Made by a program: the position numbers and the translations under genes. The notes beneath the pieces were generated by a model that worked only from the letters and a program-made list of their open reading frames with translations, had not been told where the DNA came from and did not search any database. This document shows positions 10,199 through 55,777 of a stretch of 64,000 nucleotides of DNA, in pieces. Source of the DNA: Methylocapsa sp. S129 (GTDB lineage: Bacteria > Pseudomonadota > Alphaproteobacteria > Rhizobiales > Beijerinckiaceae); contig NZ_LMUI01000060.1 of the NCBI RefSeq assembly GCF_009765995.1, positions 18,218-82,217 of the forward strand, in the 5' to 3' direction. Within the stretch, counting starts at the first letter, position 1, and every line of letters starts with the position of its first letter.

Positions 10199-11593
10199 CT
10201 AACGCGACGCGCCAGCCCGTGTTCCCGCGATGCGTCCGAACACGACAGCCGGCAGCAGTCCGTTGCCGGAGAGATAGCCGGCGGCTGTCGAGCCCGAGAT
10301 CCCCGCCGCCGCCCCGCCCACCGCAAAGAGGTTCGGCAGGGCGTCGCCGGAAGGGCGCAGCACGCGGGCGTGTTCGTCTATCGCGAGCCCGCCCTGGGTA
10401 TGGAACAGGGCGCCGGTCACGCGCACCGCCTTGTAGGGCGGCGAAAGCGCCGGAACGCTCGCGAAGATGCGTCCGAACGGGTCGGTCCCCGACAGCTTCT
10501 TCAGGCGTTCAACCTGTTCTAAGGTTTCGACGAGCGTCGCCTCGGGCAATTTTGCGAGCCGTGCAAGCGCCACGATGGAGTCAGCCGACAGCACCGCGCC
10601 AAGCGCTTCCGCTTTGCGGAAATCGTCAAACTGCCGGGCGATTCCGGCGATGCGTTCGTCGAAAATATCGAACGCGATTCCATTCGCTTTGATCAGAACC
10701 ACGGCGGCCTGCTCCGAATAGCCCTGCGATTCATCGGAGAAGCGTCGCCCCGACGCATCTACCTGGAAACCGCCTTCCATGATCGCGGCCCAGGTGATGA
10801 GAATCCCGTGGGGATGAGCGACCGAGCCATGCCCCTGATAAGCCGACATGAAGCGCAATTCGGCGCCGAGCTTCTCGCCCCACAGCACGGCGTCGCCGCG
10901 ATTGCCGGGATGGCCGAAATAGAGCGCGTCGTTCATTTCGGGAATGTGGCGGCGTACGAGATCGCGATTGCCGCCATAGCCGTTGCAGGCGAGCACCAGC
11001 GCGCCGCAACCGATGCGTTCGCCCGAACCATCGGGACGTTGGACGTAAACGCCGCGCACCCTTCCGTCCGCGGCCGCGTAGAGGCTTGTCACGGTCGCTT
11101 CGGTCAGAATCGGCAGGCCAGCGGTCTCCACCGCTGTGCGCAGACGGTCGATCAGTTCGGCTCCCGAACGTGAGGGCAGGCCATGCATGCGGCGGGCGCC
11201 ATGGCCGGGGTAGTCGAAATCATGCACCACCGAGAACGGCAGGTCGTATTTATCCGCCAGCCATTCGATGGTCGCCGCGGCCGATTGCGTCAGCGCGGCG
11301 ACTATGACGGGATCGGCTTGGTTGTGCGCCTTGCGCTGGATATCGGCGGCAAATAGCGCCGGCGCGTCGGCGATGCCGCGCTCCCGCTGAAAACGCGTTC
11401 CCGCGGCGGGAATCAGGCCAGCCGAAAGCGCCGTCGAGCCGCGCGGCAGCGGATCGCGCTCGATGACGAGAACCTCGCGGCCGGCTTCGTTCGCCGCCAG
11501 CGCCGCGCATAGCCCGGCGGCGCCGGCGCCGATGATGAGCACGGGAACGTTGGTCTCGAAAGCGATCCCCGCTGCATCCAGTACAAGGCTCAT
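10199..11593 (-). CDS. FAD-dependent flavoprotein, fumarate reductase / 3-ketosteroid dehydrogenase-like
   Basis: 464 residues. A Rossmann dinucleotide motif (VLIIGAGAAGLCAALAANEA) lies at about residues 17-36, followed by the typical flavoprotein Glu-Arg pair (VIERDPLPRGST). The C-terminal FAD motif is LFAVGGAAAGISGSTAAGYL. The family (FrdA/SdhA-like soluble flavoproteins) reduces or oxidises activated C-C double bonds. It is the last gene of the operon and overlaps the upstream cysteine-hydrolase-like gene by four bases. An ene-reductase or desaturase step on an unsaturated dicarboxylate or imide would fit its neighbours, but the substrate is an inference. Confidence 0.8.
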   Translation of the reverse strand: MSLVLDAAGIAFETNVPVLIIGAGAAGLCAALAANEAGREVLVIERDPLPRGSTALSAGLIPAAGTRFQRERGIADAPALFAADIQRKAHNQADPVIVAALTQSAAATIEWLADKYDLPFSVVHDFDYPGHGARRMHGLPSRSGAELIDRLRTAVETAGLPILTEATVTSLYAAADGRVRGVYVQRPDGSGERIGCGALVLACNGYGGNRDLVRRHIPEMNDALYFGHPGNRGDAVLWGEKLGAELRFMSAYQGHGSVAHPHGILITWAAIMEGGFQVDASGRRFSDESQGYSEQAAVVLIKANGIAFDIFDERIAGIARQFDDFRKAEALGAVLSADSIVALARLAKLPEATLVETLEQVERLKKLSGTDPFGRIFASVPALSPPYKAVRVTGALFHTQGGLAIDEHARVLRPSGDALPNLFAVGGAAAGISGSTAAGYLSGNGLLPAVVFGRIAGTRAGASR

Positions 11594-12204
11594 GGCGCGC
11601 TCAATTCGGCGACGGCCTCGGCGACTGTCATCACCGGGCTTACCGGCCTGAGAGCAGCGACGGCCGTTTCATGCACGGACGTCGAAAACGCCGCGCAGCC
11701 GTCCGATAGTAAGACGGTGGCGAAGTCGCGCACATGCGCTTCGCGCAATGTCGAGGCGACGCCGCCATTGGTGACGATCCCGCCGATATAGAGCTTCTCG
11801 ATTCCCGCTTTGCGCAGGACCCATTCGAGCCTCGTCATATAGAAGGCGGAATAGGCGATTTTCTCCACCGCGAGATCGGCGGGCGCGAGTTCGTCGACGA
11901 GCGCGTGCCCCCAGGCGCCGGGCGCAAAGTCGCCCTTGCCGAGGAAGGGGCGCAGCGCTGTGAGATGCGACGCGATCATCGGCTCGCCGCCCTTGGCTGG
12001 AACCAGCGTGAATTGCGTGGCGACTATCCATCCTCCGCGACGGCGAACAAGATCGGCGAGCGGCTTGAGGCGCGCAGGCAGCGCGGCGATTTCCGGCGCG
12101 CTCTGTCCGGCGCGCCCATAGGCGCCGTTCGGGTGCACGAAATCGTTTTGCAGATCGCAGAGCAGCAAGGCCGTGCGGGCGATCGGAACGGGCAGCACGC
12201 TCAT
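11590..12204 (-). CDS. Isochorismatase-fold hydrolase lacking the usual catalytic cysteine
   Basis: 204 residues, the usual family length. The nucleophile-activating Asp17 is in LLLCDLQNDF, and a conserved Lys115 is in AVEKIAYSAF. The position that is Cys in amidase members (TNVCV) reads TNGGV at 145-149, so Gly148 replaces it. Members of this superfamily either cleave amides with a Cys (nicotinamidase, N-carbamoylsarcosine amidase, maleamate amidase) or, like isochorismatase, work without it. The gene lies between hyuA and the flavoprotein gene and overlaps both by four bases, so it acts in the same pathway. A deamidating or decarbamoylating role is plausible from context, but the lost Cys makes the chemistry uncertain. 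Confidence 0.8.
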   Translation of the reverse strand: MSVLPVPIARTALLLCDLQNDFVHPNGAYGRAGQSAPEIAALPARLKPLADLVRRRGGWIVATQFTLVPAKGGEPMIASHLTALRPFLGKGDFAPGAWGHALVDELAPADLAVEKIAYSAFYMTRLEWVLRKAGIEKLYIGGIVTNGGVASTLREAHVRDFATVLLSDGCAAFSTSVHETAVAALRPVSPVMTVAEAVAELSAP

Positions 12205-14276
12205 TTCGATATCCTTTCGATGATGAGATTGCCGAAGCGATCGACCAGCGCCGTGAGGCCGGGATCGAGCACGGTGGTCGCATCAGGCTGCTCCAGCACG
12301 GCGGGCCCCTCGACGACGGCGCCGATCGGCAGATCGAGCCGCGACCAGATCGCCGCTTCCCGCCAGCCGCCGGCGAACCAGACCTGCCGCGTTCCGCGCC
12401 GCGCGGCTTCAAGCGACAGATCCGGACCCGGCGCCAGCGCCGCGAGATCGAAGACCGGCCGCCGCCCGATCGCCGCCGTTCGCAGCGAAACGATGCGGAC
12501 CGGAATTTCCGACAGGATTTGGCTGAACTGCTTGCGGTAGGCCGCCTCGAAGGCGGTGCGGACGATCGCCTCGGTCACTTCGACGCCATTGTCGTCGAGC
12601 GTCACAGGCAAGGGCGTGGCGACGCTATGCGTCTGGCCGAGGTAATGCATGTCGAGTTCGTAGACGACATCGACGCTGTCCACGGCGACGCCAGCCGCGT
12701 CGACGACTCTTTTTGCCTCTCGTCCGGCCTCGACCATCCGCGCTTCGAGCGCACGTGCGTCCAACCCTGCGAGATCCAAGTTCACGGTCAGCACCTGATC
12801 ATGCCGAAGATCCGCGATCACGCAGCCGAGCGCGCTTGTGATGCCCGGAAAGCGCGGCACAATGGCGCTGGAAAGACCGACTTCGCCAATCAGGGCGCCC
12901 GCGTGGAGCGCCCCGCCGCCGCCGAACGGCATGATGGCGAAACGCCCGGGATCATGTCCGCGTTCGATCGAGACAAGCCGTATCGCTCCGGCCATGCGCG
13001 CATTGGCGACGCGCACAATCGCTTCGGCCGCGTGGATGGCGCCAAGCCCGAGCGGTACGCCGATATGCCTAGCGATCGCCGCTGTCGCCGCCTCCACATC
13101 GAGCCTCGCCTGCTTGCCGCCGATCGGGCGATCCGCATTGATGCGCCCGAGCACGACATTGGCGTCGGTCAGGGTTGGACGCGTCGCGCCCTGGCCGTAG
13201 CAGACCGGTCCTGGCCGCGAGCCCGCGCTTTCGGGTCCGACCTGTAGCAAGCCGCCTTTATCGACGTGGGCGATCGATCCGCCGCCGGCGCCGATTGTCG
13301 TGATTTCGATCATCGGCGTACGGATGACGAGGCCGAAATCGATCGTCGTTTGGGCGGCGAGCGACGAGGCGCCGCCGGCGATCAGCGAAACGTCGAACGA
13401 GGTGCCTCCGAGATCGGCGGTGATGACGTTGGAATAGCCTGCCGCTCGCGCGATCGCGGCGGCGGCGATGACGCCGGCGGCGGGACCTGAAAGCGCAGTC
13501 CGGACGGGCAACCGGCGCGCTGTGGCCGTCGACATGACGCCGCCGTTCGATTGCACGATATGAAACCGGCCCCCGAATTGATCGAGAGCCAAGGCATCGC
13601 CGAGTTTATCGAGGTAGGAGCTGACGACGGGCTGCAGGTAGGCGTTGATCGCCGTCGTCGAACTTCTCTCGAATTCCCGAATTTCGGGCAGAATCTCATA
13701 GGAAGTCGCGATGTTCTCGTTCGGCCAGACTTCGCGGGCGGCGGTCGCGGCGGCGCGTTCGTTGGCTGGGTTGGCGTAGGCGTTGATGAAAACGATCGCC
13801 AGCGCCTGCGCGCCCTTCGCGACCAGTTTGCGCGCGGCGTCCTCCACGGCGGCGAGATCGACGGCCTGGCGTATGGTTCCATCCGCCAGGACGCGCTCGT
13901 CCACTTCGATGCGCATGTCCCGATCGATCAGGGGAACGAAATCGCCCCAGAGGCCCCAGGTGCGCGGCCGGTCGCGCCGGCGCATCTCCAGCACGTCGCG
14001 AAAGCCGCGCGTCGTGATGAGGCCGACGCGCGCGCCTTTGCGCTCAAGCAGCGCATTGGTGCCAACCGTGGTGCCGTGAACGATCGCGCCCATTTCCCGG
14101 ATCGGCCCCAATCGGCGGAGGCCCTCGATAAAGCCGACAGCTTCATCGCCGCGGTTCGAAGGCGCCTTGGCGGTTGCAAAGCGCCGCTCGGCTTCATCAA
14201 ACCAGAAGAGATCGGTGAAAGTGCCGCCCACATCGACGCCGACGATCGTCGGCGGCGGCTTCTTCGGTCCGGTCAT
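12201..14276 (-). CDS. hyuA: Hydantoinase/oxoprolinase family subunit A (HyuA), first copy
   Basis: 691 residues from the ATG at 14276, which overlaps the hyuB stop (ATGA). The frame is open upstream, but only as a shadow of hyuB. The N-terminal actin-like ATPase signature VGVDVGGTFTD is at about residues 12-22. GTTVGTNALLERKGA follows, then the second phosphate-binding segment ITADLGGTSFDVSLI and the glycine motif TIGAGGGSIAHVDKGG. HyuA with HyuB makes ATP-dependent enzymes that open cyclic amides (N-methylhydantoin, 5-oxoproline) or carboxylate ketones. The exact substrate cannot be read. Its place in an operon with a Liv transporter, an amidase-fold protein and a C-C lyase argues for a cyclic imide or amide. 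Confidence 0.9.
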   Translation of the reverse strand: MTGPKKPPPTIVGVDVGGTFTDLFWFDEAERRFATAKAPSNRGDEAVGFIEGLRRLGPIREMGAIVHGTTVGTNALLERKGARVGLITTRGFRDVLEMRRRDRPRTWGLWGDFVPLIDRDMRIEVDERVLADGTIRQAVDLAAVEDAARKLVAKGAQALAIVFINAYANPANERAAATAAREVWPNENIATSYEILPEIREFERSSTTAINAYLQPVVSSYLDKLGDALALDQFGGRFHIVQSNGGVMSTATARRLPVRTALSGPAAGVIAAAAIARAAGYSNVITADLGGTSFDVSLIAGGASSLAAQTTIDFGLVIRTPMIEITTIGAGGGSIAHVDKGGLLQVGPESAGSRPGPVCYGQGATRPTLTDANVVLGRINADRPIGGKQARLDVEAATAAIARHIGVPLGLGAIHAAEAIVRVANARMAGAIRLVSIERGHDPGRFAIMPFGGGGALHAGALIGEVGLSSAIVPRFPGITSALGCVIADLRHDQVLTVNLDLAGLDARALEARMVEAGREAKRVVDAAGVAVDSVDVVYELDMHYLGQTHSVATPLPVTLDDNGVEVTEAIVRTAFEAAYRKQFSQILSEIPVRIVSLRTAAIGRRPVFDLAALAPGPDLSLEAARRGTRQVWFAGGWREAAIWSRLDLPIGAVVEGPAVLEQPDATTVLDPGLTALVDRFGNLIIERISK

Positions 14277-16012
14277 GCGACGCTCCGCGCGCGCAACGCC
14301 TGAGTTTGCTCGGAATCGAGTTCGCCCTCGGGCGTAACCTCGATCCTGTAGTCGGTGCGCGCCGCCGCGGCCGAGACATAGCCGAGCCGGACATCGCGCG
14401 CGACGATGGCGCCTTCGCGCCCCAGCGGGTGGCCCCAGCCGCCGCCGCCTGGCGTCTCCAACCTGACGCGTTGACCCTGGCGAACCCGGACATCCGTGAC
14501 CTTGGAGGCGAGCGGCGGATGGGCGTCGCCGCTGTCGGTCTGCCACGAAAAGACGTTGAGGGCCGCCGGCCCGCCGCCGTTGACGCCGAATGGCGCGAAC
14601 CGGCCGCGCTCGCCGAGTAGGAATGCGTCGGCGCCGTTGGGCGCAAGCGCCTCGATCTCATAGATGGCTCCGAGGCCGCCGCGATGGAGCCCGGGCCCGG
14701 CGCTGTCGGGACGCAGAGCCCATTGAGTGAACAGGATGGGATAGGCCGCCTCCAAGATTTCGGCGGGCGGGATCGTCGCCATCGAAATCGGGTTGTTGCC
14801 GTGATTGAGCCCGTCGGTCTCCGGATTGCCGCCGAGGCCGCCGCCGAAGAAGGAGAACATCACCCAACGCTGGCCGCCGGCGCGATAGCCCGCGAGCGAA
14901 AGCGCATTGATCGTGCCGAAAGGCGCCGCCGTCGCGCGTTCCGGCATGATCGTCGCAAGCGCGCCGAAGACAACGCCGATGACGCGCAGGATTGTTTCGG
15001 TATAGCCGCCGACAGGCTTTGGCCAAGATACGCCGAGCAGCGTCGTGTTCGGAATGATGAATTCGATCGGCGCGAGGCAGCCGGCATTGGCGGGCACGTC
15101 CGTGAAGACATGTTTCAGCGCGACGTAACAGCAGGCGACGGCGGTCGAGCGCGCGATGTTGAGCGGCCCGGCGCATGGCGCCGACGATCGCGAGAAATCA
15201 AGGATCATCGCGTCGCCCCTGATTGTCAGGTCGAGCGCGATCGTCAGTTTTTCGTCAGTGACGCCGTCATTGTCGAGATAGTCCTCGAAGCTCGTCCGGC
15301 CGTCCGGCAGCGCTGCTATGTTTTCGCGCATCAAGGCTTCGGCGCGTCGCATGAAAGCGTCGAGCGCTTCGGAGACGATTGCCTCGCCATATTGGTCGAG
15401 CACGTCGGCGAGCCGCCGCTCGCCAAGGTCGAGCGCATTCAACTGGCCGTGCAGGTCGCCATAATTCGATTGCGGCACGCGGCTGTTGGCCGACAGGATC
15501 GCAATGATGTCATCGTTGAGCCTGCCTTGCGCGATGAGCTTGACCGGCGGGAAGCGCACGCCCTCCTGCAGGCTCTCGGTCGCGCGTGCGTTGAAGCCGC
15601 CCGGAACGTTGCCGCCAATGTCGAGCCAATGGCCGACCGAGGCTAGCCAGCAGAACAGGACGCCCTTGCGGAACACGGGCCGCACCAGCCGGAAGTCGTT
15701 GAGATGCGTGCCGCCGTCATAGGGATCGTTGAAGATGAACGTGTCGCCGGGCTCGAGGCCGCCGTCGCGGGCGACTTTATCGATCACTGCTTTGACGGCG
15801 AAAGCCATCGCGCCGACGAAAATCGGCAGGCCCGTTGTTCCTTGCACCAGCGTTGCGCCTGTCTCAGCATGATAAAGGCCGTGGCAGGCGTCGTGCGCCT
15901 CGGCGATGATCGGGTTGAACGCGGAGCGATAGAGCGTCGCGTCCATTTCATCGGCGATCTGCTCCAGCCGGCCCTTGAGGATGGCGAGCGTGACGGGGTC
16001 CAACGCGCTCAT
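14273..16012 (-). CDS. hyuB: Hydantoinase/oxoprolinase family subunit B (HyuB), first copy
   Basis: 579 residues. The ATG at 16012 overlaps the stop of the upstream lyase gene (ATGA) and gives the normal HyuB start (MSALDPVTLAILKGRLEQIA). Family motifs seen are FNDPYDGGTHLNDF, the glycine-rich GPGLHRGGLGAIYEIE and the C-terminal VRLETPGGGGWGHPLGR. HyuB is the partner of HyuA and holds the hydrolytic or carboxylase half of the reaction. It is encoded immediately before hyuA in this operon, whereas the second copy in this window has the order hyuA-hyuB. Confidence 0.9.
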   Translation of the reverse strand: MSALDPVTLAILKGRLEQIADEMDATLYRSAFNPIIAEAHDACHGLYHAETGATLVQGTTGLPIFVGAMAFAVKAVIDKVARDGGLEPGDTFIFNDPYDGGTHLNDFRLVRPVFRKGVLFCWLASVGHWLDIGGNVPGGFNARATESLQEGVRFPPVKLIAQGRLNDDIIAILSANSRVPQSNYGDLHGQLNALDLGERRLADVLDQYGEAIVSEALDAFMRRAEALMRENIAALPDGRTSFEDYLDNDGVTDEKLTIALDLTIRGDAMILDFSRSSAPCAGPLNIARSTAVACCYVALKHVFTDVPANAGCLAPIEFIIPNTTLLGVSWPKPVGGYTETILRVIGVVFGALATIMPERATAAPFGTINALSLAGYRAGGQRWVMFSFFGGGLGGNPETDGLNHGNNPISMATIPPAEILEAAYPILFTQWALRPDSAGPGLHRGGLGAIYEIEALAPNGADAFLLGERGRFAPFGVNGGGPAALNVFSWQTDSGDAHPPLASKVTDVRVRQGQRVRLETPGGGGWGHPLGREGAIVARDVRLGYVSAAAARTDYRIEVTPEGELDSEQTQALRARSVA

Positions 16013-16956
16013 CGGGCAGCCTTCGACGGCGCCTGATAATCTTCCTCGTAGCCCTTGCCGCGCTCCAGCATCGCCGGCGTGCCGACGATTTCGTTGATTG
16101 CCTGAAAGTCGAACATCCGGTTGCGGAATCCGTCGGTGGTGCCGTCGCGTCGGAGGACTCCGTAGAAGTCCTGCGCCGTGAAGGCCAGTGCGCGCACGAT
16201 GGCGCCGGGAAAGATGACGAGCCGGAAGCCGATCGCCTGCAAATCGGGGCCGGAAAGGATCGGGGTCTGGCCGCCTTCGACCATATTGGCCATCAGCGGC
16301 GCGTATGGCCCGAGCGCTTGCGCCACAACGCTGAGCTGCTCGCGCGTGCGCGGCGCTTCGACGAACAGGATATCCGCGCCCGCCTCGGCGTAACTTTCCG
16401 CCCGCTCGACAGCCGCCTCGAACCCTTCGACGGCCAAGGCGTCGGTGCGTGCGATGACGAGGGTCTCGTCGCTGCGGCGCGCATCGACGGCCGCGCGTAT
16501 CTTGCCGACCATCTCCAGCATCGGGACCACGCCCTTGTCGGCGAGGTGACCGCAGCGCTTGGGAAAGGTCTGGTCTTCGATCTGAATCGCGGCGGCGCCC
16601 GCGCGTTCGAACAGGCGAACGGTCCGTTGCACGTTCAAAGCATTGCCGTAACCCGTGTCGGCGTCGACGATGACGGGCGTCTCCACACGTTCGCATATAT
16701 GCGCCAGCGTATCGGCGACCTCGGTCATCGAGACGAGGCCGATGTCGGGCTGGCCAAGCTTGGTATAGGCGATGGCGGCGCCGGAAAGGTAGAGCGCCTC
16801 AAAACCGGCCGCGGCGGCGAGCGAAGCCGTCAGAGCGTCATAGACGCCTGGCGCGACGATGATGTGGCTTTGCGCGATGCGCGGCTTAAGCGAGGCCGGC
16901 CGGAGAGGCCGCCCGTCGCGGGCGCGCGCCGATGGAGCGTGGGAATCATTCGTCAT
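16009..16956 (-). CDS. Isocitrate lyase / PEP mutase superfamily C-C lyase (methylisocitrate or 2,3-dimethylmalate lyase-like)
   Basis: 315 residues from the ATG at 16956; a GTG two codons earlier overlaps the livF stop as GTGA and is equally possible. The barrel carries the Mg-binding segment VDADTGYGN (Asp98, Asp100) and the superfamily catalytic loop KRCGH (133-137). IQIEDQTFP and IARTDALAVEG are also present. Lyases of this group split 2-hydroxy-dicarboxylates such as methylisocitrate and 2,3-dimethylmalate into a keto acid plus a carboxylate; others are oxaloacetate decarboxylases. The gene sits between the Liv transporter and hyuB, so it probably performs the terminal cleavage. The divergent LeuC/LeuD-type hydratase would supply a suitable 2-hydroxy acid. 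Confidence 0.85.
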   Translation of the reverse strand: MTNDSHAPSARARDGRPLRPASLKPRIAQSHIIVAPGVYDALTASLAAAAGFEALYLSGAAIAYTKLGQPDIGLVSMTEVADTLAHICERVETPVIVDADTGYGNALNVQRTVRLFERAGAAAIQIEDQTFPKRCGHLADKGVVPMLEMVGKIRAAVDARRSDETLVIARTDALAVEGFEAAVERAESYAEAGADILFVEAPRTREQLSVVAQALGPYAPLMANMVEGGQTPILSGPDLQAIGFRLVIFPGAIVRALAFTAQDFYGVLRRDGTTDGFRNRMFDFQAINEIVGTPAMLERGKGYEEDYQAPSKAAR

Positions 16957-16958
16957 GG

Positions 16959-17672
16959 TCACATCCCAAGGTAGGTTTTCTCAAGTTCGGGGTCGCGCGC
17001 CAGGTCTTCGCCGCGTCCTGACAGCGCGAAGCGGCCGTTCTCCAGCACATGGGCGCGCGTCGCGATCGCCAGCGACTGCATGACGTTCTGCTCGACGAGA
17101 AGGATCGTCATGCCTTCGGCGTTGAGGTGCACAATAAGCGCGAACATTTCCTCGACCAGCAGCGGCGATAGGCCCAGCGAGGGCTCATCCAGGATGAGCA
17201 GGCGCGGCTGGCCCATCAGCCCGCGGCCGATCGCGAGCATCTGCTGTTCGCCGCCCGATAGCGTTCCGGCAAGCTGCGCCCGCCGTTCCCGCAGGCGCGG
17301 AAATGTGTCGAAGACCTTTTCGATATTCGCCGCTCGCTCGGCTTTGCCGCGCCGATAGCTGCCGAGCTCGAGATTTTCCCTGACGCTCATATCCGGAAAG
17401 ATGCGCCGCGCTTCAGGCACGTGGATGAGGCCGGCGGCGACGATCGCCGGCGGAGCCAGATGATCGATGCGCTGGCCGCCGAAATAGATTTCGCCGGCCG
17501 CGGCGCGGATGACGCCCGAGAGCGTCTTGTTCAAGGTGGTCTTGCCGACGCCGTTCGAGCCGAGCACGGCGACGATCTCCCCGGGGCCCACTTCGAGATC
17601 GACGCCGCGCAGCACTTCGGTTTCGCCATAGCCGGCGACAAGGCCGCGAACGCTGAGAAGCGCTTCAGCCAT
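16959..17672 (-). CDS. livF: Branched-chain amino acid-type ABC transporter ATPase LivF
   Basis: 237 residues from the ATG at 17672, eight bases inside the end of livG. Walker A is GSNGVGKTT, the signature is LSGGEQQM and Walker B is LLILDEPSLGLSPLL, with the family C-terminus. It is the second ATPase of a HAAT (LivFGHMK) importer. In this operon the carried solute is more likely the precursor of the HyuAB pathway than leucine, because the enzymes are co-transcribed. Confidence 0.92.
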   Translation of the reverse strand: MAEALLSVRGLVAGYGETEVLRGVDLEVGPGEIVAVLGSNGVGKTTLNKTLSGVIRAAAGEIYFGGQRIDHLAPPAIVAAGLIHVPEARRIFPDMSVRENLELGSYRRGKAERAANIEKVFDTFPRLRERRAQLAGTLSGGEQQMLAIGRGLMGQPRLLILDEPSLGLSPLLVEEMFALIVHLNAEGMTILLVEQNVMQSLAIATRAHVLENGRFALSGRGEDLARDPELEKTYLGM

Positions 17673-18423
17673 GCGCCACGTCCCGCGCGGCGAGCCGTTT
17701 GGCGGCGCCATGACCGAGATAGGCCTCGATCACGTTCGCATCCTTGGTGATGGCGGAGGGCGAACCCTCGGCGATGATTCGGCCCTGCGCCAGGACGAAG
17801 ACCGTTTCGCAAAGACTCATGACGGCCTGCATCACATGCTCCACCATCAGCACCGTCACGCCGCCTCGCCGAATGTCCTGGATGATCGGAATGACGTCGC
17901 GCACTTCCGACGGGTTGAGGCCGGCAAGAACCTCGTCGAGCAAAAGCAGCGTCGGCTCGGTCGCGAGCGCACGCGCAAGCTCCAACCTTTTGCGGCCGGC
18001 GATCGTCAGTCCCGAAGCGGGCGCATTCAGCCGGTCAGCGAGGCCGACGCGCTCCGAGACCGCCTCGGCCTTGGCGAGCGCCTCGTCGCGGCGCGCGTGC
18101 CGCAGATGAGCGCCCACGGCGATGTTTTCGCGTACGGTCAGGCCGGCGAAGGGCTGGACGATCTGGAACGTGCGCGCGACGCCAAGCGCGGCGCGCTTGT
18201 GCGGCGCCAAGGCGCCGATATCGACGCCTTGGAAAGCGATGCGCCCGCTCGTCGGCCTCTCGAAACCAGAGATCAGTGTGAACAGCGTTGTCTTGCCGGC
18301 GCCATTGGGTCCAATCAGGCCGGTGATGCCGCCCGCATTGATGGTCAGCGACACGGAATCGACCGCAAGCACGCCGCCGAAGCGTTTGGATGCGTTCTGC
18401 ACTGACAGCAGCGGCGCGCTCAT
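17665..18423 (-). CDS. livG: Branched-chain amino acid-type ABC transporter ATPase LivG
   Basis: 252 residues from the ATG at 18423, which overlaps the livM stop (ATGA). Walker A is GPNGAGKTT and Walker B is LLLLDEVLAGLNPSE. The signature region reads GLTIAGRKRLELARAL, a variant seen in several LivG groups in place of LSGGQ. The C-terminal EAYLGHG motif is typical of LivG. It pairs with LivF to power the HAAT importer. Confidence 0.92.
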   Translation of the reverse strand: MSAPLLSVQNASKRFGGVLAVDSVSLTINAGGITGLIGPNGAGKTTLFTLISGFERPTSGRIAFQGVDIGALAPHKRAALGVARTFQIVQPFAGLTVRENIAVGAHLRHARRDEALAKAEAVSERVGLADRLNAPASGLTIAGRKRLELARALATEPTLLLLDEVLAGLNPSEVRDVIPIIQDIRRGGVTVLMVEHVMQAVMSLCETVFVLAQGRIIAEGSPSAITKDANVIEAYLGHGAAKRLAARDVAHG

Positions 18424-19409
18424 GACGCCCAACGGGTCGAGAGCCCCCGTCCGAGCCGAGCCGCCAGCCCGCGCAGACCCTTTGGAGCGAAGGCGATGAC
18501 GAGCACGACCAGTGCGCCGTAAAGCGCGACGTCGATTCCGGGAATGCGGCCCGTCAGGGCTTTGGCGCCTTCCGCAAGGCCGTGCAACGCCAAGGTGCCG
18601 ATCAGCGGCCCGAATGCTGTTCCCAAGCCGCCGATGATCGGCGCCAGCAGCGCCTCGACGGAAACCGCGGCGCCATAGGCGATGTCGGCGTTCACATAGA
18701 GGAAATATTGCGCGTAGAAGGCTCCCGCCGCCGCCGTGACGGCGGCCGATAGCGTGATCGCCTGCAGCTTCACCTTGAATGTGTCGATGCCGAGCGCCTG
18801 CGCGGCGCTCTCGTTCTCACGGATCGCGACGAGATAGGCGCCGAAGCGCGAACGCTCGATCGCGCGCGTGAGGATCAAGACGAGGGTCACGAGCGCCAGC
18901 GCGATCCAGAAGAAGATCGCGCGGCTGGCGAACTGGAAGTTCCCCGGCGCGACGTCGAGCTTCAACAATGTTCCCGCGGCGCCGCCGGTAAAGGGCGAGG
19001 CGTTGGCAACGATGCGGAACACTTCGGCGAAGGCGAGCGTCACCAGCGCGAAATAAGAGCCGCGCAGCCCTGAGCGAAAGCTGAGGAAACCGATCGCTGC
19101 GCCGACCGCCGCGCCCGCGCCAATGGCGGCTGCGAAAGCGACATAGGCGTTCAATCCGTAGCGCGCCTGCAGGAGCGCCGTTCCATAGGCGCCTGTCCCG
19201 AAGAACGCCGCGTGTCCGAACGAGAACTGGCCGCCGTAGCCGCCTAAGATGTTCCAGCCCTGACCGGCGAGGGCGACCAGCAACGCCAGCACCATCGCAT
19301 TGAGGACCGTGTTCGCCGAAGTCGCCAGCGGCGTCAACGCGAGGAGCGCCGCGACAACGAGAATCGGCGCATAAGCCGAAAACATCCCCCTTGCGCCGGA
19401 GACCGTCAT
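18420..19409 (-). CDS. livM: Branched-chain amino acid-type ABC permease LivM
   Basis: 329 residues from the ATG at 19409, which overlaps the livH stop (ATGA); the longer upstream frame is a livH shadow. About nine hydrophobic segments are present. GGYGGQFSFGHAAFFGTGAY is the conserved LivM segment, and the cytoplasmic loop AIRENESAAQALGID contacts the ATPases. It forms the channel together with LivH. Confidence 0.92.
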   Translation of the reverse strand: MTVSGARGMFSAYAPILVVAALLALTPLATSANTVLNAMVLALLVALAGQGWNILGGYGGQFSFGHAAFFGTGAYGTALLQARYGLNAYVAFAAAIGAGAAVGAAIGFLSFRSGLRGSYFALVTLAFAEVFRIVANASPFTGGAAGTLLKLDVAPGNFQFASRAIFFWIALALVTLVLILTRAIERSRFGAYLVAIRENESAAQALGIDTFKVKLQAITLSAAVTAAAGAFYAQYFLYVNADIAYGAAVSVEALLAPIIGGLGTAFGPLIGTLALHGLAEGAKALTGRIPGIDVALYGALVVLVIAFAPKGLRGLAARLGRGLSTRWAS

Positions 19410-20275
19410 GCCCGCGCTCCGAAGAGGCCTGTCGGGCGAACCAGCAGCGCGAGAATGAAGATGACGAAAATGCCGAGCTGCCCGAGGCTCTCGCCGAAAT
19501 AGAGTCCCGATAGGCTTTCGACGACGCCGATGAAGAGGCCGCCGATCATCGCGCCGGGCGCTGAGCCCATACCGCCCAGCACGACTACAGTGAAGGCCAC
19601 GAAAACATAGGCGTCGCCGACGCGCGGCTGCACGTAATAGCTCGGCAGCAGGACGCAGGCGGCGATTGCGAGGCAGGCGGCGCCGAGGCCGAAGGTGACG
19701 GCATAGACATGCGCCACGTCGATGCCGACGAGCGCCGCGCCGAGCTTCTCCTTGGCGACGGCGCGGATGGCCTTGCCGGTGTCGGTTTTCTTGAGCAGCG
19801 CCCAGAGCAGCGTGGCCGTCACGCACGTCACTGCGAACGCGATCACCCGCGGCGCCGGCAGAAAGACGAATCCGAGATCGACCGTCGAAAAGCCGTAGGG
19901 CACGTCAATGGTGCGCGTGTCGGATCCGAAGGCGGCGAGCAGCGCGTTCTCGATGAGAATGGAAAGCCCAAGCGTCACCAACAGGGTGTTGCTGTCTTCG
20001 CCATGGCTCGCCGGTCCGATGATATAGCGCTGCGCGCCATATCCGAGAACGAAAAACAGCGGCGCCAGGCCAAAGACCGCTATGAGCGGATCGACGCCCG
20101 CCTGCTCAGCGAAGAAGGCGGCGAACATCGCCGCCGTGAGGATCGCCCCATGCGCGAAATTGATGATGTGCAGGACGCCATAGACGAGCGTCAACGCGAC
20201 CGAAACGAGCGCGTAGACCGCGCCCGTCAGGAGACCGTTGATCACGGCGGCGATGACAATCTCGGGCGCGAACAT
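19406..20275 (-). CDS. livH: Branched-chain amino acid-type ABC permease LivH
   Basis: 289 residues, almost entirely hydrophobic helices. The family segments YALVSVALTLVYGVLHIINF (near residues 21-40) and the loop KAIRAVAKEKLGAALVGIDV are present. It starts 9 bp after the binding-protein gene and overlaps livM by four bases. Confidence 0.92.
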   Translation of the reverse strand: MFAPEIVIAAVINGLLTGAVYALVSVALTLVYGVLHIINFAHGAILTAAMFAAFFAEQAGVDPLIAVFGLAPLFFVLGYGAQRYIIGPASHGEDSNTLLVTLGLSILIENALLAAFGSDTRTIDVPYGFSTVDLGFVFLPAPRVIAFAVTCVTATLLWALLKKTDTGKAIRAVAKEKLGAALVGIDVAHVYAVTFGLGAACLAIAACVLLPSYYVQPRVGDAYVFVAFTVVVLGGMGSAPGAMIGGLFIGVVESLSGLYFGESLGQLGIFVIFILALLVRPTGLFGARA

Positions 20276-20284
20276 ATTTGGCGG

Positions 20285-21508
20285 CTATGCCGGCACAGGG
20301 AAGATCGGCTTGGCGTTGGCGAAGGCGTCGGGGAAGACCACCTTGATGTCGCCGCCCTGGACCTGGGTATTCACGGGCGCGGCGCCCGTGTTCTGGCCGT
20401 TGACGAACTTTGTCGGTCCATACGGCATAATGTGCTTGGAGAAGGTCGAGGTCTCCAGCGCCGCTGTGATCTTCGCACGATCGACCGAACCGGCGCGTTC
20501 GATGGCGTCGACGAGCAGCAATACGGCCGAATAGTTCAACGCCACGTTATAGGTGAAGAACTTGCCCATGCCGTCTACTTCTTTTTTGAGGGCGATCGCC
20601 GTCTCGTTGCGCGGATCGTACCAATGGTTGGTGTCGATCACATTTTCCGCAGCCTCCGGGAATTCCTTGACGAAGCGATAGTTCGAGGCGGCGCCGTTCA
20701 ATATGGCGAAAATGCCCTTGGGTTTGATGCGCTGTTGTTGCATCGTCCGCGCCAGCAGCACGAACTCGCCGTAATAGCTCGACGGAATCACGAGATCGGG
20801 GTTCTTCGCCTTGATCTGCAGAGCGACATTGGACATGTCGCGCGAGGGCGTCGGGTGGGCGATCGACTCGATCACTTCGAAGCCGCGTTTGGGAAGCTCG
20901 GTCTCCAGCAGCTTGGCGAGGCCCGAGCCGAACAGGCCGTCCTCGTGAACCAGCGCGATGGTCTTGATCGGTTTTCCCGCCGCGTCGTTCAGCTTGACAA
21001 GATTGTCGAGCGCCTGAGCGCTCACGATCGAAGACCCGGGTCCAAAACGGAATGTGTTCTTAAGTCCGCGATTGACGATCTGATCGTTGACGCCGACATC
21101 GACGATATAGGGCAGATCGTAGCGCGAGGCAGCCTGGCTGGCGGCGAGGCAGATCGGGCTGGCGAAGCCGCCGACGATCGCGCAGACCCCCTCGGCCTGC
21201 ATGCGCTCGACCTCGCTGACGCCGCCTTCCGGCGTCGATAAGGCGTCGCCCTTGACCGCCTCAAGATTCACGCCACCGAGCGCCTTGACGCCGCCCGCCG
21301 CGTTGACAGCCTTGATCGCAAATTCGGCGCCGAGCTGGCCGGCCTGGCCGTCGAAGGCGAGCGCGCCGGTCAGCGGCTGCAGGATGCCGATCTTGATCGA
21401 CGTCGCCTGCGCGCGCGCGAGCCCTGGCAAGGCGAAGGCGCCGGTCGCCAAGCCCACGCCCGCCTGGAGTGCGCCGCGGCGAGAAATTCCGGTTCTATGC
21501 TTTGTCAT
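20285..21508 (-). CDS. livK: HAAT-family periplasmic substrate-binding protein (LivK-like)
   Basis: 407 residues. The N-terminus has a twin-arginine-like start (SRRGALQAG) and a signal ending near ALARAQA. The mature sequence opens with IKIGILQPLTGALAFDGQ, the usual entry of type-1 HAAT binding proteins. The C-terminal lobe carries LLLVDAIERAGSVDRAKIT. The start codon overlaps the end of the regulator gene (ATGA). The protein fixes the specificity of the importer and is the best handle for finding the pathway substrate. Confidence 0.9.
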   Translation of the reverse strand: MTKHRTGISRRGALQAGVGLATGAFALPGLARAQATSIKIGILQPLTGALAFDGQAGQLGAEFAIKAVNAAGGVKALGGVNLEAVKGDALSTPEGGVSEVERMQAEGVCAIVGGFASPICLAASQAASRYDLPYIVDVGVNDQIVNRGLKNTFRFGPGSSIVSAQALDNLVKLNDAAGKPIKTIALVHEDGLFGSGLAKLLETELPKRGFEVIESIAHPTPSRDMSNVALQIKAKNPDLVIPSSYYGEFVLLARTMQQQRIKPKGIFAILNGAASNYRFVKEFPEAAENVIDTNHWYDPRNETAIALKKEVDGMGKFFTYNVALNYSAVLLLVDAIERAGSVDRAKITAALETSTFSKHIMPYGPTKFVNGQNTGAAPVNTQVQGGDIKVVFPDAFANAKPIFPVPA

Positions 21509-22344
21509 CGCCTCTTTCCCCTCTCCTCGCGGGCGTTTCCCGCTTGCGTCTCTGAACCCTTGGTCGTTCCGGCCTCGGCGTGGCCATTCTCCACCGGCGA
21601 CCAGCGGCGGCCGCCATTCCTGCCCGTGCGCGCGAGATCCATGCGGAAAGCGTAGCGGTCGGGTCGATAGAGCGCGTGAAGATGCTCCACGCCGCGACCC
21701 TTGCCGTCATAGACGACGCGCGTCAGCGCGATCAGCGCCGAACCGATATCGACATTCAGCGCCGCGGCGGCTTCCGGCGAGGCGAGAACCGCGCTGATTT
21801 CCTGCGTCGCACGGTCGACGGACACGCCCGATCGCTCGAGCAGCGCGAGGAGCGGCTTCGAGGCGAGCTCAGGTTCGGTATAGGTGACGCCGATGCGCTC
21901 GGGGACATGGGTCGTCAAATAAGAGAAGGGTTCGCCATCGACGATTCGCACCCGCACCGAGCGCTGCACGCGCTCGCCCTTGACCAGGCGCAGCGCATCC
22001 GCGACCATGGCGGGAGCATCTTGATAGCTGAAAGCCAGGAGCCGCACATCGGTGGACCGGCCCATGGCGATCAAATTGCTGAGCACATCGGCGAGGTCGG
22101 CGACCACCGGTTTGACGGCATTTTGCAAGGCGATGAAGGTTCCAGCGCCCCGACGTCTGTCGATCAGGCCTTCGCGCTCCAATTCGGCGAGGGCGCGCCG
22201 CACCGTCACCCGCGAGACATTGTGCTCGCCCGCCAGTGCTTGCTCGCCTGGAAGCGTGTCGCCCGCATTGAGGCCGCCGTTGGCGATACGCTCGCGCAGC
22301 ACCAGATAAACCTGACGGGCTTTTGGGAGTTCGACGCCGACCAA
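21505..22344 (-). CDS. GntR/HutC-family transcriptional regulator with UTRA domain
   Basis: 279 residues. The winged-helix at about residues 10-70 reads LRERIANGGLNAGDTLPGEQ then NVSRVTVRRALAELEREG, and it is followed by a UTRA ligand domain. The tail is short, polar and low complexity. It is the first gene of the long minus-strand operon, four bases overlapping livK, and faces leuC across a 123-bp gap. It therefore probably controls both units, sensing a pathway metabolite. HutC relatives sense urocanate and other small acids. Confidence 0.88.
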   Translation of the reverse strand: MVGVELPKARQVYLVLRERIANGGLNAGDTLPGEQALAGEHNVSRVTVRRALAELEREGLIDRRRGAGTFIALQNAVKPVVADLADVLSNLIAMGRSTDVRLLAFSYQDAPAMVADALRLVKGERVQRSVRVRIVDGEPFSYLTTHVPERIGVTYTEPELASKPLLALLERSGVSVDRATQEISAVLASPEAAAALNVDIGSALIALTRVVYDGKGRGVEHLHALYRPDRYAFRMDLARTGRNGGRRWSPVENGHAEAGTTKGSETQAGNAREERGKRR

Positions 22345-22370
22345 TTCAGACTCGCAAATAGTGCTTTTAA

Positions 22371-22390
22371 TTGTCTACATTATAATACAA
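22371..22390. promoter_or_regulatory. AT-rich dyad in the gntR/leuC divergent promoter
   Basis: TTGTCTACATTATAATACAA has TTGT and ACAA ends around a TATAAT readable on both strands (plus 22381-22386, minus 22379-22384). It is the only AT-rich patch in the gap. An operator for the adjacent GntR regulator overlapping a divergent -10 element is the simplest reading. A good -35 box was not found. Confidence 0.4.
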
Positions 22391-22467
22391 CATGAGCGAG
22401 TCAAGCGCGTCTACGGAAGCGTCAGCCTTTGCGGAATGATGAGATCGGAATGGCGAGATAGGACACG

Positions 22468-23871
22468 ATGAGCCGAACAATCATCGACAAGCTTTGGGAC
22501 GCCCACGCGATCACGACGCGCGAAGACGGCATGAGCCTGCTTTGGATCGACCGGCACTTGCTTCATGAGGGTTCGTTCCATGCGTTCGATCAATTGGATA
22601 AGCGCGCCGCCGCGGTGGCCCATCCAGAGGCGACATTCGGCGTCGCCGATCATTACGTGCCGACCCGCGGCAGGGCGAAGGGAATCGCCAATTCCGAGAT
22701 CGCGCGCATGGTCGATCTCCTCAAGGAGAATACGCAGCGGCATCATATCCGCCTGATCGGTCTCGACGACTCTCGTCAGGGCATCGTTCACGTGACCATT
22801 CCCGAGCAGGGGTTGACGCTGCCGGGATTGACGATCGTCTGCGGCGACAGCCACACATCGACCCACGGGGCCTTCGGCGCCTATGCGTTCGGGATTGGGG
22901 CCTCCGAGGTCGCCCATGTTCTCATGACCCAGACGCTGTGGCAGAAAAAGCCCAAGCGCATGCGCATTACTATCGAAGGCGCGCTCGGTTCCGGGATAAC
23001 CGCCAAGGACGTCGCCCTCACTATTATCGCCCGCATCGGCGCCGACGGAGCGCAGGGCTGCGCGATCGAATATGCGGGATCCGCCATCCGCTGCCTGTCG
23101 ATGGAGGGCCGGATGACCCTTTGCAACCTGTCCATCGAGGCGGGCGGACGGCTCGGACTGGTCGCTCCGGACGAGACCACTTTTGCTTGGTTGCAGGGCC
23201 GCTCGTTCGCGCCGCAAGCCAAAGCTTTCGACGAAGCAGTTGAGGCGTGGCGTGCGCTCGGCAGCGATAGCGACGCCAAGTTCGACCGCGAGGCGAGCTT
23301 CGCGGCGCGCGAGATCGCCCCGACTGTGACCTGGGGCGTCAGTCCCGAGCACGCCGCCCCGATCGACGGTGCGATCCCCGATCCCGCTAACATCCGGGAC
23401 GCCAGCCGCGCCGCGGCGGTGCGCGATGCGCTGGCCTATATGGACCTCAAGGCCGGCACTTCGCTAGCGGCCATCCGTATCGATAGAGTCTTCATCGGCT
23501 CCTGTACTAACGGTCGCATCGAGGATCTGCGCGCGGCCGCGGCAGTGCTGGCGGGCCGCCAAGCCGTTGTGCCCGGGCTCGTGTCGCCAGGTTCGTCCAG
23601 AGTGAAACGGCAGGCCGAGGAAGAGGGGCTCGACCGCATTTTCCGGGACGCCGGCCTGGAATGGGCCGATTCCGGTTGTTCGATGTGCGTCGGCATGAAT
23701 GGCGATGTCGTCGCCGCGGGCGAACGTTGCGCCTCGACGACCAACCGCAACTTCAAGGGCCGGCAAGGTCCAGGCGCGCGCACCCATCTGATGTCGCCAG
23801 CGATGGCGGCCGCCGCCGCTGTCAGAGGCCAATTGACAGATGCGCGCGAGCTTCTGGCAGGACGGACATAG
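22468..23871 (+). CDS. leuC: Aconitase-superfamily hydratase large subunit (LeuC type)
   Basis: 467 residues, matching LeuC length. The 4Fe-4S ligands are Cys346 in IGSCTNGR and Cys404/Cys407 in CSMC, spaced as in LeuC. Substrate-loop motifs CGDSHTSTHGAFGAYAFGIG and GMGDVV-like GMNGDVV are present. LeuC with LeuD isomerises 2- to 3-isopropylmalate, but close relatives hydrate citraconate, maleate or dimethylmaleate. The gene diverges from the HyuAB/lyase operon and not from leucine biosynthesis genes, so a catabolic role is possible. Sequence alone does not separate the options. Confidence 0.85.
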   Translation: MSRTIIDKLWDAHAITTREDGMSLLWIDRHLLHEGSFHAFDQLDKRAAAVAHPEATFGVADHYVPTRGRAKGIANSEIARMVDLLKENTQRHHIRLIGLDDSRQGIVHVTIPEQGLTLPGLTIVCGDSHTSTHGAFGAYAFGIGASEVAHVLMTQTLWQKKPKRMRITIEGALGSGITAKDVALTIIARIGADGAQGCAIEYAGSAIRCLSMEGRMTLCNLSIEAGGRLGLVAPDETTFAWLQGRSFAPQAKAFDEAVEAWRALGSDSDAKFDREASFAAREIAPTVTWGVSPEHAAPIDGAIPDPANIRDASRAAAVRDALAYMDLKAGTSLAAIRIDRVFIGSCTNGRIEDLRAAAAVLAGRQAVVPGLVSPGSSRVKRQAEEEGLDRIFRDAGLEWADSGCSMCVGMNGDVVAAGERCASTTNRNFKGRQGPGARTHLMSPAMAAAAAVRGQLTDARELLAGRT

Positions 23872-23882
23872 GGGGAGGGCCG

Positions 23883-24530
23883 ATGGAGCCGCTCAACATC
23901 ATCGAGACGCCGGCCATCCCGTTGGCGCTCGCCAATGTCGATACGGACCAGCTCATCCCGGCGCGATTCATGAAACGCCCGCGCGCAGCGGGTTACGGGC
24001 CGTTTTTGCTCTACGATCTTCGCAACATCGGGACGGGCCAAGCAAGCGACAGCCTTCTCGACGACCCTCAGCGCGCCGGCGCCGCCGTCATGATCGCTCG
24101 CCGCAATTTTGGCTGCGGCTCGTCACGGGAGGCGGCGGTCTACGCCCTGCTGGATTACGGCATACGCTGTGTGATCGCACCGAGCTTTGGCGATATTTTC
24201 GCGTCGAACGCCATCAAAAACGGCGTGTTGCCTGCTCGCGTCTCGGAGGCCGACGCCGAAGAGCTTCTGGCCTCGCCCAGCGCGACAGAAGGGCGCGCCA
24301 TACGCGTCGATCTCGCCGCCCAGACGATCATCGCAGGAAATTTGGTCGTTCTATTCACAATCGACCCTGTGTGGAAAACTCAGCTCCTCAACGGCTGGGA
24401 CGATATCGATCTGACCATGGCCGAGCGTCCCGCCATCGATCGCTTTCGAGCGCAGGATCTGAGAGCGCGCCCGTGGGCGGCGGTCCCCGACGGTGAAAAC
24501 ACGTTCAATAATGACCCGGTCGAGAATTGA
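23883..24530 (+). CDS. leuD: Aconitase-superfamily hydratase small subunit (LeuD type)
   Basis: 215 residues from the ATG at 23883, with a GGGGGAGGG ribosome site just before it and 11 bp after leuC. The swivel domain shows NVDTDQLIPARFMK, then NFGCGSSREAAVYAL and the APSFGDIFASNAIKNG segment conserved in LeuD. It pairs with LeuC to form the active site. It is slightly longer than typical LeuD (about 200) because of a polar C-terminal tail. Confidence 0.87.
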   Translation: MEPLNIIETPAIPLALANVDTDQLIPARFMKRPRAAGYGPFLLYDLRNIGTGQASDSLLDDPQRAGAAVMIARRNFGCGSSREAAVYALLDYGIRCVIAPSFGDIFASNAIKNGVLPARVSEADAEELLASPSATEGRAIRVDLAAQTIIAGNLVVLFTIDPVWKTQLLNGWDDIDLTMAERPAIDRFRAQDLRARPWAAVPDGENTFNNDPVEN

Positions 24531-39873: not shown

Positions 39874-39914
39874 TCGGCCTTGTCGATTCGCGAAAGCCTC
39901 AGGAGGCCATCTTA

Positions 39915-51676: not shown

Positions 51677-51728
51677 GTCATGCTCTCTCTCTCGCTTGGC
51701 CGGCGACGCGGCGGTCGGGTCGGACTGG

Positions 51729-55432: not shown

Positions 55433-55777
55433 GCTGCCTTCCTTATGTCTCGTCGGAATGTCGTCTCTTGCGGCCAAGCGCGATGAAAGACGCGCCAGAG
55501 ACTTCTGTAAACGCCAGGATCGCACTAACTGTTATGACAATATCGTCGTCGCCGCAGGGCCGGCCGCGCAACGATTCGTAAAAACCAAGTCCCAATAGCG
55601 GCTTGCCTTATTCCGACGCGCCTGGTCGCGGCGGCGTGCGGCGCATCCGCATAGCTGCTATTCACAATGCCGCGACGCCTCGATGTTCCGCCGCAGCGTA
55701 GACTGAATGTTGCGCGCGTTCGCCGGCAGCCTGACGCGGCGGCGCGTTGAAGATTTGCCCAGCAGAAGAGGTCCCTC
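55433..55777. promoter_or_regulatory. Divergent promoter region between hyuA and the FAD oxidoreductase gene
   Basis: 345 bp without a gene. It must hold promoters in both directions. The AT-richer patch near 55526-55545 (CTAACTGTTATGACAATATC) is the best place for them, but I could not assign clear -35/-10 pairs or a LysR T-N11-A site with confidence. Confidence 0.35.

Follow-up and report, generated by a model that had tools for sequence, protein, structure and literature searches.

The 13 genes between positions 10199 and 24530 of the window, i.e. the 64,000-nt stretch of Methylocapsa sp. S129 DNA analysed here (GCF_009765995.1, contig NZ_LMUI01000060.1, positions 18,218-82,217, forward strand), form a conserved module. 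On balance, and with somewhat better than even prospects, we read this module as a catabolic regulon that converts a five-membered cyclic imide with substituents on its ring carbons, either a succinimide or a maleimide, into ordinary metabolites. The strongest evidence for its role is the mutual displacement of ring-opening enzymes in related loci, a natural experiment in which three unrelated enzyme types are exchanged at one step, next to a conserved isochorismatase-fold protein that lacks its nucleophile. The cluster is common in proteobacteria, yet parts of it are misleadingly annotated as leucine, hydantoin or methylcitrate genes.

Organization of the locus

The locus comprises 13 uninterrupted open reading frames, 11 on the minus strand and a divergent leuCD pair on the plus strand, as the preliminary description of this DNA had proposed. 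Families were assigned to ten proteins with Pfam and NCBIfam; the names LivF, LivG and LivH follow from sequence and from the conserved place of these genes.

10199-11593, minus: FAD-binding_2 flavoprotein (PF00890, E 3.9e-56)
11590-12204, minus: isochorismatase-fold protein without nucleophile cysteine (PF00857, E 2.5e-38)
12201-14276, minus: HyuA, ATP-binding subunit (PF01968, PF05378, PF19278)
14273-16012, minus: HyuB, metal-binding subunit (PF02538, E 3.7e-168)
16009-16962, minus: ICL/PEP-mutase family lyase with PKRCGH motif (PF13714, E 4.8e-48)
16959-17672, minus: LivF-type ATPase (ORF and start; orthologues adjoin the lyase in relatives)
17665-18423, minus: LivG-type ATPase (ORF and start; orthologues in relatives)
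18420-19409, minus: LivM-type permease (PF02653, E 2.6e-40)
19406-20275, minus: LivH-type permease (ORF; orthologues in relatives)
20285-21508, minus: LivK-type binding protein (PF13458, E 1e-49)
21505-22344, minus: GntR regulator with UTRA domain (PF00392, PF07702)
22371-22390, no strand: operator-like palindrome TTGTCT-N8-ATACAA, the only match to the consensus in the window
22468-23871, plus: LeuC-type hydratase large subunit, second genomic copy (PF00330, E 1.4e-154)
23883-24530, plus: LeuD-type hydratase small subunit (PF00694, E 4.7e-21 on 23868-24530)

The order of transcription in the minus-strand unit is GntR, LivK, LivH, LivM, LivG, LivF, lyase, HyuB, HyuA, isochorismatase-fold protein and flavoprotein. 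Eight of its ten junctions are 4-bp overlaps, and the other two are an 8-bp overlap between LivG and LivF and a 9-bp gap between LivH and LivK. Three small ORFs had no match in PHROGs.

The regulator combines a helix-turn-helix with a UTRA domain and has the features of HutC-type GntR proteins. The palindrome lies in the single divergent intergenic region between gntR and leuC, where the dyad is enriched among relatives; 0.07 matches would be expected in the window with one mismatch allowed. Control of both transcription units by one GntR protein is indirectly supported by this one palindrome, which may serve as their common operator. Genome-wide, the operator pattern occurs at two sites compared with three for a reversed-pattern control, and the second site, near no clear gene, is ascribed to chance. 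LivK has the Pfam superfamily domain and reaches 90 bits with the branched-chain binding-protein model (cut-off 477); its nearest solved structures give no definite indication of a ligand.

Conservation among relatives

Relatives were ranked by lyase similarity, and from the best 80 of 593 candidates we counted the 62 loci for which 19.8 kb or more of sequence was available, omitting 18 shorter ones. The complete 13-gene set, in varying gene order, is present in 35 of the 62 long loci, a figure that depends, like the LeuC count below, on the identity thresholds used. This bears out the earlier view of the genes as one catabolic module. LeuC accompanies the lyase in 59 of 62 long loci. The lyase group was found in 52 of 397 sampled genomes of the same order and in 15 of 398 genomes of a phylum sample, the Methylocapsa genome being included in both. 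Culture-collection strains with the cluster include Chelatococcus asaccharovorans DSM 6462 (L062) and Microvirga subterranea DSM 14364 (L040). In two minimal regions (L165 and L166) the set shrinks to GntR, the lyase, a TctC-type receptor and a LeuCD belonging to a second subfamily, suggesting that the core of the module acts on an acid.

Because a crude ORF caller took some antisense ORFs, accessory genes were counted by tblastn, which located PrpD-type genes in 15/62 and tautomerase-type genes in 20/62 long loci. Under lower identity thresholds, both types of match appear in L062 and L117. An acyl-CoA dehydrogenase gene adjoins four of the 80 loci (L068, L108, L114 and L115; at least 69% identity), two of them among the 62 long ones. 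A glutaryl-CoA dehydrogenase at this place would agree with hematinic acid as substrate, but NCBIfam does not bear out this identification: the glutaryl-CoA model gives 215 bits (cut-off 470) and other acyl-CoA dehydrogenase models score higher. The gene was therefore dropped as evidence.

Exchangeable ring-openers

Genes for HyuAB are present in 55 of the 62 long loci of these relatives chosen by lyase similarity. Six of the seven loci without them carry allantoinase/hydantoinase-like or paired PuuE-like proteins instead, and HyuAB is never found together with an alternative ring-opener (0/62). L063, for example, encodes an AllB-like enzyme and L108 a PuuE-like pair. Another 11 genomes contributed 12 regions, three of which again show the alternative types. 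Since three unrelated types of ring-opener alternate, the substrate is probably a hydrolysable nitrogen-containing ring, in keeping with the imported ring postulated earlier. Together with the minimal loci, this displacement suggests a dicarboxylate core to which interchangeable front ends deliver material derived from such a ring.

HyuAB has hydantoinase A and B domains. Residues D15 and D288 of HyuA match the ATP-site aspartates D11 and D295 of CapA, and the conserved residues D41, H103, D106 and H128 of HyuB correspond by motif and spacing to the CapB metal tetrad D41, H99, D102 and H124, as described in excerpts of PMC8453981. The nearest solved structures are N-methylhydantoinase and CapA for HyuA, and N-methylhydantoinase and CapB for HyuB. 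From its sequence, HyuAB is predicted to be an ATP-dependent ring-opener.

The isochorismatase-fold protein had been taken for an amidase. A standard cysteine amidase is impossible, as the nucleophile position is occupied by Gly148 in 69/69 aligned rows and in five of five further sequences; the triuret hydrolase cysteine (Ser in the mutant 6xj4) aligns at this glycine. D17 and K115 are retained. The predicted model has a pLDDT of 93, and the nearest folds are triuret hydrolase, RutB and biuret hydrolase, the maleamate amidohydrolase NicF ranking only 42nd.

This proximity to ureide hydrolases would suit a hydantoin or another cyclic ureide, opened by HyuAB, AllB-like or PuuE-like enzymes to a carbamoyl compound, which the isochorismatase-fold protein would help to decarbamoylate before the remainder passes to LeuCD and the lyase. 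In support of such a substrate, the replacement ring-openers are closest to allantoinases and D-hydantoinases, N-methylhydantoinase is the nearest solved relative of HyuAB, and an Asp/Glu/hydantoin racemase gene is present in five of 62 long loci. Nevertheless, we consider it unlikely. A hydantoin would yield an amino acid, but no aminotransferase or ammonia-lyase was recognised in the conserved set. Moreover, LeuCD and the lyase require an unsaturated dicarboxylate, and the isochorismatase-fold protein lacks the catalytic cysteine of the ureide hydrolases.

The resemblance of HyuAB to caprolactamase CapAB, an ATP-dependent lactamase (excerpts of PMC8453981), could also point to a lactam, e.g. 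a substituted pyrrolinone, that is opened in the same manner and then oxidized to a dicarboxylate. This is quite improbable, as neither an aminotransferase nor an aldehyde dehydrogenase was recognised in the core. Furthermore, amidohydrolases that work without ATP act poorly on unactivated lactams, and it is such enzymes that replace HyuAB in 6/62 loci.

Lyase, hydratase and flavoprotein

The lyase scores 295 bits with the equivalog model of methylisocitrate lyase (PrpB; cut-off 354). Where PrpB has a substrate-binding arginine, 80 of 81 aligned rows have phenylalanine (F286), a residue shared with petal death protein, whose specificity includes 2-ethyl-3-methylmalate. The pocket is of mixed character, I250, P252 and R257 being as in PrpB or near it. 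We propose from these residues that the enzyme may be a substituted-malate lyase. A tricarboxylate route, e.g. from citrazinate via cis-aconitamide, with LeuCD resembling aconitase and the lyase resembling isocitrate or methylisocitrate lyase, would accord with the lyase family, the KRCGH motif and the retained R257. It is very unlikely given the exchange of the PrpB arginine and the score under the PrpB cut-off; besides, aconitate and isocitrate need no dedicated enzymes. Still less credible is a function of HyuAB as an ATP-dependent ketone carboxylase like the acetone and acetophenone carboxylases of the same superfamily: acetophenone carboxylase models match it below cut-off, but it is closer to N-methylhydantoinase and caprolactamase, and plain hydrolases take its place in the 6/62 loci.

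Cluster LeuC and LeuD exceed the cut-offs of the 3-isopropylmalate dehydratase models (636 bits vs 560 and 172 vs 116). Another LeuC elsewhere in the genome scores 788 bits; the cluster protein is 54% identical to it and falls into a clade separate from the LeuC proteins of leucine biosynthesis. Thus, leuCD is a dedicated second copy, and the earlier reservation that it might be the sole leucine-biosynthesis copy falls away. Ordinary branched-chain amino acid uptake with leucine synthesis, as the names leuCD and livKHMGF would imply, is excluded for practical purposes by the better-scoring LeuC elsewhere in the genome and the separate clade, and also accords poorly with the association of LeuC with the lyase in related loci.

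The flavoprotein had been called FrdA-like and was assigned no role in the proposed chain. Its predicted model (pLDDT 92) is nearest to solved urocanate and fumarate reductases, and it reaches 243 bits with the flavocytochrome c model (cut-off 285), but its active site is not FrdA-like: both substrate arginines of fumarate reductase (Arg402 and that of NRLGGN) are replaced by tyrosines, Y292 in 63/63 rows and Y440 in all 59 rows that have a residue there. The exchange to tyrosine suggests that the substrate is not a free dicarboxylate, and a function as ring desaturase is proposed.

Proposed pathway

For the imide reading, we infer the substrate class, the order of steps, the products and the roles of the flavoprotein and the isochorismatase-fold protein as follows. 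The imide would be taken up by LivKHMGF, and a succinimide form would be desaturated to the maleimide by the flavoprotein. HyuAB would open the ring with ATP to a substituted maleamate, from which the cysteine-less isochorismatase-fold protein may assist the loss of ammonia; in 2,3-disubstituted maleamates the carboxylate itself attacks the amide, so that the enzyme could do without a nucleophile. The resulting substituted maleate would be hydrated by LeuCD to a substituted malate, whose cleavage by the lyase would give a short carboxylic acid together with a 2-oxo acid, probably pyruvate.

Several observations speak against this scheme. Ureide hydrolases (triuret, biuret, ureidoacrylate) are nearer to the isochorismatase-fold protein than NicF is, and the allantoinase/hydantoinase resemblance of the HyuAB replacements is also consistent with a hydantoin-type ring. 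PuuE-type loci encode another isochorismatase-fold protein, in which the cysteine is retained; these loci may therefore require a conventional amidase. In eight of 62 long loci no flavoprotein lies within reach, and L082 has a luciferase-like monooxygenase instead. Finally, R257 of the lyase would allow a third carboxylate, and the PrpD-type and tautomerase-type genes have no role in the scheme.

More tentatively, and with considerable doubt, the pathway might consume pyrrole-derived maleimides or succinimides that remain when chlorophyll, bilins and heme are degraded oxidatively (methyl ethyl maleimide, methyl vinyl maleimide, hematinic acid), with the isochorismatase-fold protein as a substrate-assisted maleamate deamidase. 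As a methyl group neighbours another substituent on each of these tetrapyrrole-derived rings, hydration and cleavage would yield pyruvate together with butyrate, a butenoate or glutarate. If true, the cluster would represent a final microbial step in the degradation of chlorophyll and heme; excerpts of PMC7318184 put chlorophyll turnover on a scale of about 10^12 kg per year. Among the candidates, F286 of the lyase argues against hematinic acid relative to methyl ethyl maleimide, and R257 points neither way.

Comparison with known systems

No pathway with such a gene set was found in the open-access literature searched (titles and abstract openings), in agreement with the preliminary description, which knew of none. 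The breakdown of creatinine and N-methylhydantoin uses HyuAB and an isochorismatase-fold protein, but this route as such was rejected, since it has no need of LeuCD or a lyase, and since the cluster's isochorismatase-fold protein lacks the cysteine. Caprolactamase CapAB shares the ATP-site and metal residues, yet HyuA and HyuB, at 482 and 288 bits, remain far below the CapA and CapB cut-offs of 1000 each. NicF has the same fold as the cluster protein but possesses the nucleophile cysteine, and a plain maleamate/maleate end-route was dismissed because it would leave no need for a hydratase and a lyase of its own. PrpB and petal death protein share the family and the PKRCGH or PKKCGH loop with the lyase, whose mixed pocket has F286 as the only compared residue in common with petal death protein.

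Anaerobic nicotinate breakdown in Eubacterium barkeri ends with 2,3-dimethylmaleate hydratase and 2,3-dimethylmalate lyase. Both systems employ a LeuCD-type hydratase followed by a lyase of the ICL/PEP-mutase family. In contrast to E. barkeri, the cluster adds a front end for a nitrogen ring (HyuAB or its replacements), a flavoprotein, an importer and GntR control, and its hosts are proteobacteria, of which the cultured, named ones are mostly aerobes.

Results

The minus-strand unit of eleven genes with a divergent leuC/leuD pair, as claimed in the preliminary description, was borne out by ORF lists and refined starts: 10199-24530 is occupied by 11 minus-strand genes and two divergent plus-strand genes, with 4-bp overlaps at 8 of the 10 minus-strand junctions. 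The families were backed by Pfam and NCBIfam for the 10 module proteins scanned. The window corresponds to 18218-82217 of contig C6 in the 6.87-Mb host genome (G000). Several features outside the module were recorded in the window:

50153-57097: another pair of hyuA and hyuB genes, accompanied by a family-5 solute-binding protein and a DAO-type FAD oxidoreductase, with a dipeptide-type ABC transporter in the vicinity; read as another cyclic-amide operon
25755-27914: a 719-aa ADP-ribosylglycohydrolase-domain protein (domain scan), with sugar-type ABC transporter genes alongside (judged from the ORF)
39438-40907: a Dak1-domain protein (domain scan)
42401-44488: a Dak1-domain fusion protein whose other part is a sugar-binding regulator domain, with matches to helix-turn-helix models (domain scan)

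Matches to the module lyase occurred in 283 of 397 genomes of the order, 52 of which, the host included, reached E 3.1e-95 or better. Lyase identity was 56-67% in the 51 others, and the next match fell to 4.9e-81 and 44%. All 29 loci fetched from other genomes of the order carried at least one further module gene within about 1.5 kb of the lyase gene. At the level of the phylum, a sample of 398 genomes contained 15 with a match at E up to 1e-90. A scan that used the lyase alignment (A1) against named genomes gave at least 593 candidates, of which the best 80 were retained; the locus sample is therefore tilted to close kin. Among the matches listed, these relatives are mainly Alphaproteobacteria, with Marinobacter, Saccharospirillum and Parapusillimonas. 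Gene counts were taken on the 62 of these best 80 loci with at least 19.8 kb of DNA (long loci): LeuC 59, LeuD 58, HyuA and HyuB 55 each, ICH (the cysteine-less isochorismatase-fold protein) and the flavoprotein 54 each, GntR 53, and LivK, LivH and LivM 44 each. The search for the same gene set in other genomes, proposed earlier, recovered all 13 genes together in 35 of the 62. Gene order and orientation differ between loci, which argues against plain inheritance of an ancient neighbourhood.

That leuCD might be the sole leucine-biosynthesis copy was contradicted by a better LeuC on another contig of the host genome (788 bits versus 636 for the module copy; 54% identical). Twelve of the 52 genomes with the lyase were examined for LeuC copies. 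Each had a LeuC of 772-814 bits, and in 11 a second LeuC-type gene was no more than about 10 kb away from the lyase gene; in G287 this second gene lies on a different contig from the lyase gene. A 38-row tree placed the operon copies in a single clade (support 100/98) and the housekeeping copies in another (99/100); the copy at L142 (genome G098), not adjoining a lyase gene, has a long branch and uncertain placement.

Exchange of ring-openers (DISPLACEMENT) became apparent from the seven of 62 long loci, among the best 80 of at least 593, that are missing HyuAB. Six contain a substitute: an amidohydrolase resembling allantoinase and D-hydantoinase (L063 and L082, as well as the shorter loci L066 and L112) or two PuuE-like polysaccharide-deacetylase-fold proteins (L108, L113, L114, L117). 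L072 has neither, and no long locus combines HyuAB with a substitute (0/62). In 12 additional regions from 11 further genomes, HyuAB occurred in five, the amidohydrolase in L163 and the PuuE type in L167 and L168; L164, L165, L166 and L170 lack a front end. In L165 and L166 the whole region comprises GntR, the lyase, a LeuCD pair from a second subfamily and a TctC-type receptor. Of the same 62 long loci, 52 encode the LeuC type seen in the window, seven encode the second subfamily and three have no LeuC; the importer differs likewise (LivK 44, TRAP DctP 12, TctC 7). In view of this variation in front ends and importers, we read the module as a fixed core, hydratase and lyase acting on a dicarboxylate, with interchangeable ring-opening front ends. 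In L082, a luciferase-like monooxygenase that weakly resembles SfnG and RutA (12557-13729) stands at the flavoprotein's place.

The dyads TGTAT-N8-ATACA and GTAT-N8-ATAC occurred in 13 and 21 of 73 upstream sets, window included; in one single-base shuffle, the most frequent dyads reached 3 and 6. The sole consensus match in the window, TTGTCTACATTATAATACAA at 22371-22390, lies inside the gntR-leuC region; 0.07 matches were expected with at most one mismatch.

HyuA D15 and D288 and HyuB D41, H103, D106 and H128 are conserved; their counterparts in caprolactamase are required there according to PMC8453981, the CapB-to-HyuB matching being by motif and spacing only. In ICH, D17 and K115 are invariant, and Gly148 aligns at the cysteine of triuret hydrolase (Gly in 69/69 rows and 5/5 more). 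PuuE-type loci encode a different isochorismatase-fold protein that keeps Cys at the motif, as read from the L108 sequence.

In the lyase alignment, I250 (80/80 with a residue), P252 (81/81), R257 (80/80) and F286 (80/81) occupy positions held by Leu, Pro, Arg and Arg in PrpB and by Ala, Ser, Tyr and Phe in petal death protein. By analogy with known structures, the 2-oxo-acid pocket would be of methyl size and the leaving acid would be without the extra carboxylate of PrpB at that spot, R257 making the latter point less certain.

Flavoprotein Y292 (63/63) aligns with Arg402 of fumarate reductase, whose mutant R402Y (1jrz) has the same letter; Y440 (59/59 with a residue) aligns with the Arg of NRLGGN, and W268 (62/63) and I271 (invariably I, M or V) with the Glu and Arg of EAVRG. 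The flavoprotein's highest-ranking structural neighbours are urocanate and fumarate reductases, and further down the ranking come ketosteroid and cyclohexanone dehydrogenases, in which Tyr is the base. We infer that its substrate is a neutral carbonyl ring.

Discussion

Maleamic acids with substituents at both positions 2 and 3 undergo cleavage by the carboxylate of the same molecule. Such self-cleavage of maleamates with two substituents would explain a conserved ICH with Asp and Lys but without Cys. In keeping with it, ICH is absent from four amidohydrolase loci (L063, L066, L082, L163) and from L096, which has HyuAB.

Accessory genes include a PrpD-type gene (15/62 long loci of the best 80 of at least 593) and a tautomerase-SnoaL gene (20/62), which at the thresholds used co-occur only in L110; their products may be alternative isomerases. 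The MmgE/PrpD-family gene (e.g. L050:8419-9804) often sits between livF and the lyase gene and is not in the window operon. The tautomerase domain is fused to the SnoaL-like domain (e.g. L108:9180-9884), usually with gntR nearby. An acyl-CoA dehydrogenase gene adjoins the module in L068, L108, L114 and L115.

On plausibility only, natural tetrapyrrole-derived rings are candidate substrates. In PMC7318184, hematinic acid is identified as coming from chlorophyll, and a scheme of chlorophyll/heme products includes methyl ethyl maleimide and methyl vinyl maleimide; for senescent leaves and lake sediment the paper cites both maleimides and hematinic acid. According to PMC9227131, Spirulina extract contains 2-ethyl-3-methylmaleimide as a minor constituent; the paper also cites this compound for Vallisneria. 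In the module neighbourhoods no tetrapyrrole-specific gene was recognised; an old-yellow-enzyme/FadH-type gene adjoining five of the 62 long loci from the best 80 (L070, L076, L079, L083, L095) scored 267 bits against a bilirubin reductase model, far below the cut-off of 750.

The individual parts of the module are known. Searches of open-access texts yielded no description of the gene combination, the ring-opener exchange or the cysteine-less ICH. Nicotinate fermentation has a dialkylmaleate/malate branch; the module would resemble it in this branch and differ from it in a front end undescribed in those texts.
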